Shown here: positions 59,201 to 62,899 of the stretch, in pieces | Numbering within the stretch: the stretch's first letter is position 1 | Layout: each line of letters starts with the position of its first letter | Assembly (NCBI RefSeq): GCF_032393985.1 | Contig: NZ_CP135918.1 | Location: 5,457,724-5,521,723 of the forward strand | From: Fischerella sp. JS2 | GTDB taxonomy: Bacteria; Cyanobacteriota; Cyanobacteriia; Cyanobacteriales; Nostocaceae | Direction: 5' to 3' | Length of the DNA: 64,000 bases | The notes under the pieces: model-generated | Databases searched by the model: none | Seen by the model: only the letters and a program-made list of their open reading frames with translations | Told to the model about the DNA's origin: nothing | Made by a program: the position numbers and the translations under genes

Positions 59201-60325
59201 TCAAACAGAGATTGCAGTCTGAGACTGTCTAACATCTCCTACTCCTAGAGTCGAACTCCCGACTCTTTTAATATTAAGACTGGCGTTTTCATCTCTATCA
59301 TTTTCAGATTGACATGAAGGACAACGCCAGCGTCTAATCGACAAATCCAATTTTTCTAAAATGTGTCCACAGCTAGAACAAGTTTTTGTGGATGGATACC
59401 ATTGATCTACAAACACTACTTGTTTATGCTTCTTCTTAGCAATCCATTCTAGAATTTGCAGAAATTCACGCCTCGCCAAGTCTGATATTTTCCTACCCCA
59501 AAGACGTTGCATTCCTTTAAGATTTAAGGTTTCAAAACAAAGCACATCAAAATTATCTGTTAATTTATGAGCGAGTTTCCAAAACCAATCACGTCTACGA
59601 TGAGAAATATCCTCATATTTGCGAACTAGATTTTTTCTAAATCGCTCTCTGTTTGATGAACCTTTGAGTTTTTTAGAATGCTGTCGGCTAGCTTTCCTAA
59701 TGGCATTTAATGATTGTTTTAAAAATTGGGGAGACTCAATTTTTGTTCCGTCCGAGCAAGTGAGGAATGTTTTTAATCCAAAATCAAATCCCGCTATTCT
59801 ACCAGTCGCAAACTTGATTTTTGAATTAGAACAATCATCAACAACTATAATCATAAATAGCTCGCCTAAAGGAGTGCGTTTTATGGTTAAGGTTTTGACT
59901 GTTCCCTCTATCTCTCTCGACTTCCAAAATTGATAAACTTTGTTCCCAATCTTGACTCGATTTCCACCTAAAAACTTGTATCCAGATTGTTTAAGAGTGA
60001 ATGATTTGTATTTCTTAACTTTTTTAAATCCTGGCGGTCTAACTCCTTTTTTGTTGTGTTTAAAAAATAATTGGTAGGCTTTCTCAATGCGTTGACAAAT
60101 ATCTTGTACTGATTGAGAACCTACTGTTTGCCAAAATGGATTACATTTCCGCAGTTTGGCAATATGAGATTGAAGTTTTGCACAGCTTAAGTGTTTGCCC
60201 CACATTCGATAGTAGCGTTTGTGTAGGGCAATACAATGATTGTAGATTATCCCACTCGCGTTAATCATGCGCTTGAGGAATCTATTTCTTTTGTGCTGAT
60301 ACAGTTTAAACTTCAGGGTTTTCAT
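59201..60325 (-). CDS. tnpB: TnpB RNA-guided nuclease of an IS605-type element
   Basis: A 374-residue TnpB of normal length. The RuvC active-site residues are visible: Asp in IAGFDFGLKTFLTC (about 180), Glu in LCFETLNLKGMQRLW (about 270) and Asp in RDENASLNIKR (about 345). The zinc ribbon is CSSCGHILEKLDLS and CPSCQSENDRD. The N-terminus (MKTLKFKLYQHKRNRFLKRM, then NASGIIYNHCIALHKRYYR) is family-typical. TnpB cuts DNA guided by an RNA from the element's end, homing the element back. Intact catalytic residues suggest it may be active. Its guide RNA would lie at the 3' end near 59165-59260. Confidence 0.93.
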   Translation of the reverse strand: MKTLKFKLYQHKRNRFLKRMINASGIIYNHCIALHKRYYRMWGKHLSCAKLQSHIAKLRKCNPFWQTVGSQSVQDICQRIEKAYQLFFKHNKKGVRPPGFKKVKKYKSFTLKQSGYKFLGGNRVKIGNKVYQFWKSREIEGTVKTLTIKRTPLGELFMIIVVDDCSNSKIKFATGRIAGFDFGLKTFLTCSDGTKIESPQFLKQSLNAIRKASRQHSKKLKGSSNRERFRKNLVRKYEDISHRRRDWFWKLAHKLTDNFDVLCFETLNLKGMQRLWGRKISDLARREFLQILEWIAKKKHKQVVFVDQWYPSTKTCSSCGHILEKLDLSIRRWRCPSCQSENDRDENASLNIKRVGSSTLGVGDVRQSQTAISV

Positions 60326-60371
60326 GTGATTATGATATCATCAGTGGTGTAGATAATCAATACTCATCTAC

Positions 60372-60773
60372 ATGAAAACTGTTTATAATCATTACAATCA
60401 TGCTGTTGGATTAGCTACTGTCCATTTAATCTGGATACCATGCAGACGCGCTCGTGTATTCGCTAATAACGAAAACTTAAAACTTCGATGCATTGAAGTA
60501 TTCCAGTCTGTTGCTAATGACAAGAAGTGGATTATCAAAGCATTAGAAGTTGCGCCGGATCATATACATCTACTAGTTGAATATGATCCGCACCACTCAA
60601 TATCTCAAATAGTTAAAGCTTTTAAAGGAAGGTCATCAAGACTACTAAGAAAAGAATTTCCAGAATTATTGAGATTACCTAGCTTATGGACACATTCTTA
60701 TATGTTTGACACGACTGGAAAGATTAGTACTCAGAAGGTTTTAGAGTATATTAATGACCCCCTTCACGGATGA
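60372..60773 (+). CDS. tnpA: TnpA Y1 HUH transposase of the IS605-type element
   Basis: A 133-residue IS200/IS605 TnpA. The HUH motif is DHIHLLVEY (about residues 66-74), and the catalytic Tyr is in KVLEYINDP near 126. The start HYNHAVGLATVHLIWIPCRR is the conserved first strand. It nicks and rejoins single-stranded DNA at the element's hairpin ends. Divergent from tnpB with 46 bp between them. Looks intact. Confidence 0.9.
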   Translation: MKTVYNHYNHAVGLATVHLIWIPCRRARVFANNENLKLRCIEVFQSVANDKKWIIKALEVAPDHIHLLVEYDPHHSISQIVKAFKGRSSRLLRKEFPELLRLPSLWTHSYMFDTTGKISTQKVLEYINDPLHG

Positions 60774-60935: not shown

Positions 60936-61847
60936 CTACGATCTCACCATTAACAATTCTACTAACTTCTCGGTAATTGGAAAATCTGTCTGTCTTTCAA
61001 AATGGAGAAACATCGGACTAGGATTGGCTTCTAAAAAAACATACTCACCCGCAGGATTTTGTCGCCAATCGATCGCCGTCCATTTTAGATACAATGCTTT
61101 GGCGATGTCTTTACACAGCTGCTGAATTTGTTTTGGCAATTCCACCGGAATTAATTCCGCTTCTATGTCTGTGCGAAAGTCTAAATCATCACTGCGAATC
61201 TCGGCCGCATAAACAGAGTCACCAATTACATAACTGCGAACGTTAGTTCCAGGAATATACTCTTGTAAGGTAACAGGAGCAATACTCAAAGCTATATTTA
61301 GTCGCTTCGGTTCTAACACAGATGCGGTTAAAGTTTGAGTATGAGCGCCACCGTATACAGGTTTGAAAATGGCTTTTTCGTAGGATTTAGCAAACCTGAT
61401 CACTTCTTGTGGATCGTTGGTGATCAAAGTTTGGGGAATTTTGACACCTAAAAGATGAATTTGGCGAAGTTGTAGAGGTTTTTCTTTATGAAATTGATAC
61501 GCTTCCCAAGAGTTCACCCAACGTGCTGGACATGCCTTAAATAATGTTCGCAGCACACTCATAGAATCATTGAAGGCGATGTTTTGTTGATGGGAATCTT
61601 CTAGAGAAGGAATACCAACGCTACCCAAGCTACGCCAATAAACACTGTGAATATCTTGAAAATCTAATTGATATTCTGGAGATAACTTGAGAGAACCGAA
61701 AACAGAATTAGGTTCCCAAGATATTTTTAGTTGACTGGGGAACATCCGAGTATCTAAATAATCTACAGTCGCTCCCGCCTGTGTCAAAACATTCTTCATA
61801 TGCACAGCATGAGCATCTGAAGAATTGCCTAAAATTAAAATATTCAT
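60936..61847 (-). CDS. ATP-grasp ligase of a graspetide locus (PsnB/MdnC-like)
   Basis: A 303-residue ATP-grasp protein. An N-terminal pre-ATP-grasp region (MNILILGNSSDAHAVHMKNV) is followed by the ATP-grasp fold: AIFKPVYGGAHTQTL (phosphate-binding strand), LQEYIPGTNVRSYVIGDSVY, AEIRSDDLDFR and the metal-binding end AIDWRQNPAGEYVFLEANPS. The length and the IPGTNVRSYVIG and FLEANPSPMF segments are typical of enzymes that make omega-ester or amide macrocycles in graspetides (microviridin, plesiocin). The gene just upstream carries graspetide-type core repeats, separated by a hairpin. General RimK-type ligase activity is the alternative. No lesion is seen. Confidence 0.8.
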   Translation of the reverse strand: MNILILGNSSDAHAVHMKNVLTQAGATVDYLDTRMFPSQLKISWEPNSVFGSLKLSPEYQLDFQDIHSVYWRSLGSVGIPSLEDSHQQNIAFNDSMSVLRTLFKACPARWVNSWEAYQFHKEKPLQLRQIHLLGVKIPQTLITNDPQEVIRFAKSYEKAIFKPVYGGAHTQTLTASVLEPKRLNIALSIAPVTLQEYIPGTNVRSYVIGDSVYAAEIRSDDLDFRTDIEAELIPVELPKQIQQLCKDIAKALYLKWTAIDWRQNPAGEYVFLEANPSPMFLHFERQTDFPITEKLVELLMVRS

Positions 61848-61873
61848 AGTCGTATTTAAATTGTTCTAGTTCG

Positions 61874-61897
61874 TAGTGAGCGTTTCAACGCTCACTA
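61874..61897. terminator. Hairpin with 11-bp perfect arms between precursor and ligase
   Basis: TAGTGAGCGTT (61874-61884) and AACGCTCACTA (61887-61897) form a perfect stem with a 2-bp loop, located between the graspetide precursor relic and the ATP-grasp gene. It lacks a strong T-run on the minus strand, so it may act as an attenuator or RNA-stability hairpin that favours precursor over enzyme synthesis, as common in RiPP operons. Confidence 0.6.
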
Positions 61898-61913
61898 AAT
61901 CATGTACACTTTT

Positions 61914-62034
61914 TTAAAAACCCCCCTCTTCACCAAATGCTTGAGTAGTAACCGTATCACCTCCTTCCTCACCAATAGCCTGGGAAGTGAATAATCCAGA
62001 ATCAGCGATTTTCTTTACTTCCCGATTATTGACA
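61914..62034 (-). pseudogene. Graspetide (plesiocin-type) precursor, 5' end lost to a MITE
   Basis: Read on the minus strand, the 3' end encodes SGLFTSQAIGEEGG, DTVTTQAFGEEGG and a final F before TAA at 61914. The two cores fit the plesiocin-type pattern T(T/S)xxxxEE, in which Thr/Ser side chains are joined to Glu side chains by esters. Upstream the frame runs into a MITE at about 62034 and then a stop, with no ATG, GTG or TTG start, so the leader peptide is missing. The ligase gene follows 66 bp downstream. The precursor therefore looks dead at this copy. Residues before SGLF (NNREVKKIAD) are the last of the native leader. Confidence 0.75.
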
Positions 62035-62159
62035 TCAAGTTCGGCTAATTGCTTACGATATTATGCTTGTTTGGGGGTAATGGGTAATTGGTTTTTCCCA
62101 TTACCCATTACCTATTACCAGCCTACGCGACAGCATAAGTATTCAAGCGAACATAATAT
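62032..62159. repeat. MITE copy (ATCAAGTTCGG family) inside the graspetide precursor
   Basis: Left end ACATCAAGTTCGGCTAATTG (62032) and right end ATAAGTATTCAAGCGAACAT (62135) are near-inverted copies. The core GGTTTTTCCCATTACCCATT matches the unit at 2307-2417. About 128 bp, no coding capacity. The insertion splits the precursor leader from its promoter side. Confidence 0.75.
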
Positions 62160-62419
62160 GACATGTTGAACATGCACAATCATGTTTTCCAATTTATGGA
62201 GTTCGAGTTGAAACGGGTGAACGTAATAATGCATAAGTATGATCCGAAATCAAGTATTACTTATTGAAGATACAAAGAAGAATGTCTTGATTTCTGAACA
62301 ATTATAGAGGACTCTGAAGCAAATTGGCGATCGCTCAAATTATTATGATTTTGTAGACCCCCTGAGAATTTCTTCCCCTCCACAAAAACCTCAATCCTTA
62401 CATAATCAGAGCAAAGCCA

Positions 62420-62899
62420 GTGGTTGAAATTAGACCAATCCAGCAACATGAGATCGAACAAGCCAAGCAAATCGTTGTGGGAGTTAGCCTAGAAATTTGG
62501 CAAGGTGTACTAACTGAAGCAGATTTTTTGCGCTTTGATTCAATGTCCGATATCGAGAATGTGCAGTCACATTATTTCGACAACTGCGGTATATTCTTAG
62601 TCTTGGTCGATGGTGAACAAGTTGTAGGCACAGGGGCAATTCGACGACTTGATGATGAAATTTGTGAACTCAAGCGAATGTGGTTTCTCAAAGACTATCG
62701 AGGACAGGGGTTTGGCTGGAAAATGGCTCAAATGCTCTTCGATTTTGCCCAGCAAGCAGGGTATCGGAAAGTGAGACTCGATCTAGCTGACGAAAAGCGA
62801 CAACCACAAGCACTCAAACTTTATAGAAAACTTGGTTTCTACTCAATTGAACGGTATAACGATAGTTCATGTACTGTGTTTATGGAGAAGGTTGTTTGA
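62420..62899 (+). CDS. GNAT-family N-acetyltransferase
   Basis: A 159-residue GNAT protein, GTG start. Motif A is MWFLKDYRGQGFGWKMAQML, containing the acetyl-CoA pyrophosphate loop Q/RxxGxG/A. Motif B is VRLDLADEKRQPQALKLYRK followed by LGFYSIERYNDSSCTVFMEK. The N-terminal strand (MVEIRPIQQHEIEQAKQIVV) is family-typical. Substrate is unknown. A large hairpin lies downstream. Confidence 0.88.
   Translation: MVEIRPIQQHEIEQAKQIVVGVSLEIWQGVLTEADFLRFDSMSDIENVQSHYFDNCGIFLVLVDGEQVVGTGAIRRLDDEICELKRMWFLKDYRGQGFGWKMAQMLFDFAQQAGYRKVRLDLADEKRQPQALKLYRKLGFYSIERYNDSSCTVFMEKVV

Follow-up and report, generated by a model that had tools for sequence, protein, structure and literature searches.

Directly downstream of a broken precursor gene, the genome of Fischerella sp. 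JS2 keeps an intact gene for an ATP-grasp ligase, which raises the question of whether this enzyme still has a substrate and, if so, where that substrate is encoded. The locus was followed up in a window, by which we mean the whole stretch of 64,000 nucleotides that was analysed (contig NZ_CP135918.1, positions 5,457,724 to 5,521,723 of the forward strand), and positions below are those of the window unless a genome position is given. An earlier note, made from the sequence alone, had described a plesiocin-type graspetide locus whose precursor leader had been destroyed by a MITE.

A precursor gene split by a MITE

Read 5' to 3' on the minus strand, the locus (60936-62316) begins with a conserved region ahead of the 25-codon leader; after these come the MITE with its flanking GTC copies, a remainder with two cores, a 66-bp spacer with a hairpin, and the ligase:

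62235..62316, minus strand: stretch preceding the leader, similar in the three Fischerella genomes compared and probably promoter plus 5' UTR (inferred; alignment)
62160..62234, minus strand: complete 25-aa leader, MHYYVHPFQLELHKLENMIVHVQHV, which forms the 5' part of the precursor (frame reading and alignment with F. thermalis)
62115..62234, minus strand: 39-codon ORF now remaining, leader plus 14 MITE-encoded residues, with its stop within the MITE (frame reading)
62034..62159, no strand assigned: 126-bp MITE that contains an inverted repeat and is flanked by GTC direct repeats at 62031-62033 and 62160-62162 (genome copies, alignments)
61914..62033, minus strand: 3' part of the precursor, VNNREVKKIADSGLF plus two cores, without a start codon (frame reading, alignment)
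61959..61988, minus strand: core 1, TSQAIGEEGG (translation)
61920..61949, minus strand: core 2, TTQAFGEEGG (translation)
61916-61914, minus strand: stop codon of the core frame (frame reading)
61848..61913, minus strand: spacer between precursor and ligase, 66 bp
61874..61897, minus strand: perfect hairpin in the spacer, 10-bp stem, TAGTGAGCGTTTCAACGCTCACTA
60936..61847, minus strand: ATP-grasp ligase of the graspetide family, 303 aa, intact (ORF, profiles, structure model)

Much of the earlier description holds at this level. The two T(T/S)QAxGEEGG cores said to end a minus-strand frame upstream of the ligase are present (61988-61959 and 61949-61920), and the gap of 66 bp between precursor and ligase is reproduced. 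The core frame, as claimed, has no start codon before it enters the MITE: there is no ATG, GTG or TTG from the upstream TAA (62063-62061) to the cores, and the supply of a new start codon by the MITE is thus ruled out. The loss of the leader, in contrast, did not stand, as the leader lies intact at 62234-62160, beyond the MITE and just past the coordinates that the note had covered.

The two GTC copies are 129 bp apart from start to start, so that the gene has gained 129 bp without a shift of the reading frame; the leader frame is closed by two adjacent stops and a third, all of them within the MITE. Because translation from the leader stops after 39 codons and no start codon is available to the core part, the split gene should no longer yield a modified peptide. 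The local precursor gene is broken, and its leader and its cores both survive, separated by the MITE.

One way in which the broken gene might still matter is through the 39-aa peptide of leader and MITE residues, which, if produced, might influence the ligase in trans, either as a decoy or by activating it. The leader is unchanged from that of F. thermalis PCC 7521 (25/25 residues), the upstream region is conserved, and microviridin ligases are reported to be activated without a covalently attached leader; the identity of the leader, however, may just reflect a young insertion, and we consider a role for this peptide highly improbable.

The MITE and the spacer hairpin

The element proposed to begin at about 62034 is indeed a dispersed repeat with a recurring end at that position. 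With a 101-bp probe, 44 partial or full matches were found in the 7.02-Mb genome, its own copy counted, and with a longer probe matches were found in all three genomes of the genus, with ends that recur at query positions 142 and 267 (window positions 62159 and 62034). The copies are numerous and short, share common ends and carry no transposase ORF, as expected of a MITE, and their terminal inverted repeats, judged by eye from the copy alignment, are imperfect. The GTC direct repeat flanks the window copy, for which F. thermalis offers an empty site for comparison; no clear target-site duplication was seen by eye elsewhere among eight aligned copies.

The perfect hairpin reported between precursor and ligase (61874-61897) was confirmed in the sequence. 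Its pattern, searched at the same length and loop length with at most two mismatches, occurs once in the genome, which does not support a dispersed repeat, and its stem is preserved in F. thermalis and F. muscicola, with different loops. The case for a hairpin clearly special to these operons is weak, as low folding z values are also common in control gaps: z is below -2 in 25 of 30 ligase spacers versus 29 of 51 other co-directional gaps, or 25 of 47 when the four control gaps that proved to be ligase spacers are removed.

Three states of one operon within Fischerella

The genus was compared through three genomes, namely that of the window, F. thermalis PCC 7521 and F. muscicola PCC 7414. In F. 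thermalis the leader runs uninterrupted into NNQEVKQIADSRLF-TSQAIGEEGG. This is the intact relative that the note had proposed to look for; it bears out the disruption of the precursor by the MITE and, by supplying the empty site, fixes the insertion point. The F. thermalis gene crosses a contig gap and has at least six cores (two on contig C59 and four on C58), versus two left in the window. In F. muscicola the same leader start is followed by post-core sequence, the core region being deleted, and the ligase is without seven residues that fall within helix 1 in the model of the window ligase. Thus, a single RiPP operon is found in three states within one genus (intact, MITE-split and core deleted), and the enzyme ORF is kept in all of them.

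The surroundings of the locus also vary. Just downstream of the ligase, the window carries an IS200/IS605 pair (59201-60773), made up of a TnpB-type ORF (59201-60325, minus strand) and a Y1 transposase (60372-60773, plus strand); the ORF found at this position in F. muscicola combines an acyl-CoA dehydrogenase N-terminal domain with a putative cyclase domain. On the other side, a GNAT acetyltransferase gene (62420-62899) is divergent from the precursor, and in F. muscicola the 1 kb upstream of the ligase holds the end of a MerR gene, with no GNAT acetyltransferase ORF seen.

Identity and constraint of the ligase

Profile searches, suggested in the note as a check, place the ligase in the graspetide family. 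Its best NCBIfam model is TIGR04187 (160.7 bits, under the cut-off of 350), the MvdD and MvdC models score 111 and 108 bits, far under their cut-offs, and the gathering thresholds of the Pfam families PF21068 and PF08443 are exceeded. By sequence, the best of the solved relatives is 7drm (PsnB, the plesiocin ligase; 112.8 bits, 1.5e-31), to which the ligase is 27-30% identical, and MdnC scores 77.2 bits. The structure model (pLDDT 91, pTM 0.88) matches MdnC, PsnB, AMdnB and PruB in Foldseek, mostly with query TM values of 0.77 to 0.86. MdnC is marginally ahead of PsnB by Foldseek E-value and PsnB is ahead in the sequence search, and the PsnB clade is a candidate placement for the ligase. The enzyme is thus an ATP-grasp protein of the peptide-maturase clade, as a graspetide locus should encode, although its TIGR04187 score is below the cut-off.

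The same searches bear on another reading, in which the ligase makes a non-ester product by RimK-like glutamate ligation and the GEEGG repeats have nothing to do with it. A RimK Pfam domain is matched and RimK structures are among the Foldseek matches, but graspetide ligases come first both by sequence and by structure, and the ligase repeatedly adjoins ORFs that carry leader and cores; we regard a RimK-like product as extremely improbable and treat the enzyme below as a graspetide ligase.

An intact ligase beside a broken precursor could also be a relic that has not yet eroded, within a system that is decaying as a whole. The window ligase has one replacement that fits such a course, G288D, at a column with G in 31 of 32 other relatives. 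It nevertheless keeps all 63 columns that do not vary among the 32 other relatives in the alignment; of the 54 columns that are nearly invariant it keeps 53, with G288D as the exception. The dN/dS values of the window ligase against the other two genus genomes are low as well, at 0.11-0.21 (0.11 by NG86 and 0.18 by YN00 against F. thermalis), although they say little about the time since the insertion because part of the ligase divergence must predate it. Lineage-specific codon changes, nonsynonymous to synonymous, number 8:19 for the window, 6:10 for F. thermalis and 11:15 for F. muscicola, and the window lineage is not richer in replacements than the other two. G288D in the window and the loss of seven residues in F. 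muscicola leave room for slow decay of the ligase, which is possible. In view of the unlinked precursor described below, the ligase is probably not idle.

Ligases and precursors across the family

Ligase matches were found in 124 of 192 genomes of the taxonomic family, and 31 genomes had a full-length match at 63% or above; 30 of these 31 loci were examined (all except G085). An intact ORF with an HPF-type leader and at least one GEEGG lies upstream of the ligase in 27 of the 30, a count in which F. thermalis enters through its second contig and L031 by reading, the regular expression having missed it. As this is the usual arrangement, the precursor-enzyme pairing thought likely from spacing and strand is well supported. 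This arrangement is missing from the window, from F. muscicola and from G048; in G048 a homologue of the precursor, with five pattern-matching cores, lies on a separate contig. The loci therefore combine a ligase with an adjoining leader and Thr/Ser...Glu/Asp core, of which the window has a copy that is present but split. In the ligase tree, ligases with HPFQxELH-type precursors group together with weak support (76/77), on labels assigned by the analyst; L048, without such a precursor, was tallied with the other group.

Across 100 cores, in which GEEGG was set by the search pattern, the first two positions are T in 84 and 91, followed by x, A in 93, x and then GEEGG. The plesiocin-type (group 2) core motif is TTxxxxEE, and the assignment of the cores to this type is supported, with several repeats per precursor and a single core in some relatives (L015, L017); the precursors of genus g47 have degenerate cores. 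A strict 26-base core pattern occurs in 22 of the 192 genomes, that is, in 21 of the 31 with a full-length ligase versus 1 of the 161 others, and the lone outside genome, G123, carries a ligase remnant. A looser pattern occurs in 35 genomes (28 of the 31 versus 7 of the 161), the outside ones being G123, G071 and five single-match genomes, of which two were read and both proved not to hold precursors. The reversed patterns, used as a control, occur in none of the 192 genomes (strict) and in four (looser). The core pattern in these genomes is not due to chance.

Several negative and side results help to delimit the family. Further ligase loci were found in Calothrix, Dulcicalothrix, Iningainema, Crocosphaera, Acaryochloris, Alkalinema, Prochloraceae and Leptolyngbyaceae. 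A Pseudoalteromonas ligase (L048, 43% identical) has no GEEGG ORF within 1.5 kb upstream, and matches on plasmids were all below 60% identity, the best rows being at about 27-31%. Tested against NCBIfam and Pfam, none of three precursors reached a family cut-off, and the precursor gave only histone-like chance matches to solved structures. In-frame stops in the ligases of genus g47 were considered and dismissed for the three that were read, namely L026, L029 and L031 and not G085, which show just the natural stop after residue 300. In the ligase of a Prochloraceae MAG (L043, 55% identical), residue 113 is followed by a single in-frame stop, a sign of either a pseudogene or an assembly error. 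L101 (G071:C96:16000-24000) and L102 (G096:C23:1-8000) each hold a GEEGG precursor with three cores and, over the 8 kb examined, show no ligase match, and the G071 assembly examined has no ligase of the clade of the window ligase. Ligase copies that are truncated, internally deleted or stop-bearing (L103, L104, L105 and L106 in G123, G114, G030 and G018) indicate repeated decay.

We are confident of the anatomy of the locus and of its ancestral plesiocin-type graspetide function. The ancestral locus was a two-gene operon, in which a single ATP-grasp ligase gene came after that of a multicore precursor made up of an HPF-type leader and TTxAxGEEGG repeats. The 126-bp MITE, with its GTC repeat, has since separated the leader from the cores. 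PsnB, the plesiocin ligase, binds the leader of its precursor and forms Glu-Thr macrolactones using ATP. On this precedent, the window ligase would bind a leader, activate the Glu side chains of GEEGG with ATP and join them to Thr hydroxyls as macrolactones, a cross-link chemistry proposed by likeness to plesiocin and microviridin.

An unlinked precursor and possible activity in trans

The note had further advised a search of the genome for other GEEGG precursors that the ligase could use. A whole-genome core search found one further place (G000:C1:6360979), about 0.84 Mb away:

G000:C1:6360817-6361119: unlinked precursor, 101-aa ORF

This ORF has a leader of a second type (HPFDL...GG; MRHPFDLDLSELE...SEKVTGG), unlike the type adjoining the window ligase, one TTLALGEEGG core and a 40-residue tail. 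Its neighbours are genes for an arginyl-tRNA synthetase on one side and cytochrome oxidase subunit III on the other, and the 12 kb examined hold no ligase match. It is present in all three genus genomes, with TTLALGEEGG unchanged in all, and F. thermalis and F. muscicola have one ligase match each. A second ligase of the window genome (L002, 25% identical) is an unlikely partner because no second ligase match was seen in F. thermalis or F. muscicola, both of which keep the unlinked precursor. L002 (G000:C1:5640804-5644736) is a distant graspetide-type ligase with its own small upstream ORF ending in SDNGWDDSDCF, possibly a graspetide precursor.

Two orthologs of the unlinked precursor, 72% and 65% identical, occur in genus g5, in genomes (G057 and G108) without a ligase of the clade of the window ligase, as there is no ligase match in G057 and only distant ones in G108. 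These orthologs keep leader and tail, but the ORF is seven codons shorter and both the TT and the EE of the core are missing; the protein alignment places the gap at TTLALGE, and the DNA alignment splits the 21 missing bases into 9 + 12. This contrast between core and ligase rests on three versus two genomes and perhaps on a single event. G048 runs counter to this contrast, as the ligase is present there but the ORF that belongs to the unlinked-precursor family, which adjoins COX3 in this genome too, is without a TT/EE core. Iningainema (G044), with one ligase match, also has a second, unlinked multicore precursor with the second-type leader, and a further weak match to the unlinked ORF was found in G068. 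Small ORFs with an HPF...FEELS...SEKxxGG leader and varying middles also occur (L117, L118, L128), and three of the six compared have a TT..GEEGG core.

These comparisons suggest that the ligase still has a substrate, namely the unlinked single-core TTLALGEEGG precursor, and acts on it in trans, which we consider somewhat probable. More tentatively, the Fischerella ligase may have changed its substrate, its own multicore precursor having been lost in two ways (MITE split and core deletion), so that it would now serve the conserved, single-core, long-tail precursor; if true, this would offer an example from nature of a RiPP enzyme that has survived the loss of its operon partner. The explanation by general decay competes only with the in-trans part of our account and would make the unlinked precursor a coincidental remnant. 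The deleted core and partly missing ligase helix 1 of F. muscicola agree with it, as do the broken ligases in G018, G030, G114 and G123, which indicate frequent loss in the family; the unchanged TTLALGEEGG in all three unlinked precursors speaks against it, and we consider decay possible but rather doubtful. Activity in trans, the reading we prefer, predicts in a testable way that the substrate of the ligase comes from a gene outside the locus, and it is this likely source of substrate that gives the finding its interest. Cluster mining that demands an enzyme-adjacent precursor would miss the split gene and the unlinked precursor alike.

Comparison with known systems

All graspetides characterized so far are described as protease inhibitors (PMC8939145), and protease inhibition is therefore the likely use of the intact products. 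The F. thermalis and F. muscicola strains used here were also mined in a study from 2015, the consulted part of which gives no microviridin or cyanobactin cluster for either, and lists bacteriocin clusters (PMC4558948). Our literature search found no paper that joins 'Fischerella' with 'graspetide' or 'graspetide' with 'GEEGG'; subscription surveys outside this search (Lee 2020, Ramesh 2021) may list these loci, and we do not claim that they are unpublished.

The state of the window locus resembles that of inactive cyanobactin clusters, RiPP loci predicted to be non-functional in some strains and active in close relatives, from which it differs in peptide class and enzymes and, as far as the consulted part of that account goes, in the MITE, which is not mentioned there (PMC4558948). 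With the microviridin systems (MdnA/B/C, MvdC/D) the locus shares the ligase superfamily and fold (MdnC being the top Foldseek match), the cyanobacterial host and a leader whose HPFxL occupies the place of the microviridin PFFARFL. Unlike these systems, one ligase is seen beside the window precursor, and no microviridin TxKxPSD core was found in the window cores or in the precursors of relatives that were read. The closest parallel is plesiocin/PsnB, a group 2 graspetide system of Plesiocystis pacifica, which likewise pairs a single ATP-grasp ligase with a multicore precursor with TT-x(4)-EE cores, and whose ligase has the same fold and is the top sequence match among solved ligases. Unlike plesiocin, the family of the window locus has a cyanobacterial HPFxL leader and an apparently distinct GEEGG ending, and the window precursor is broken. 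The window locus is thus a broken new member of the plesiocin-type graspetides.
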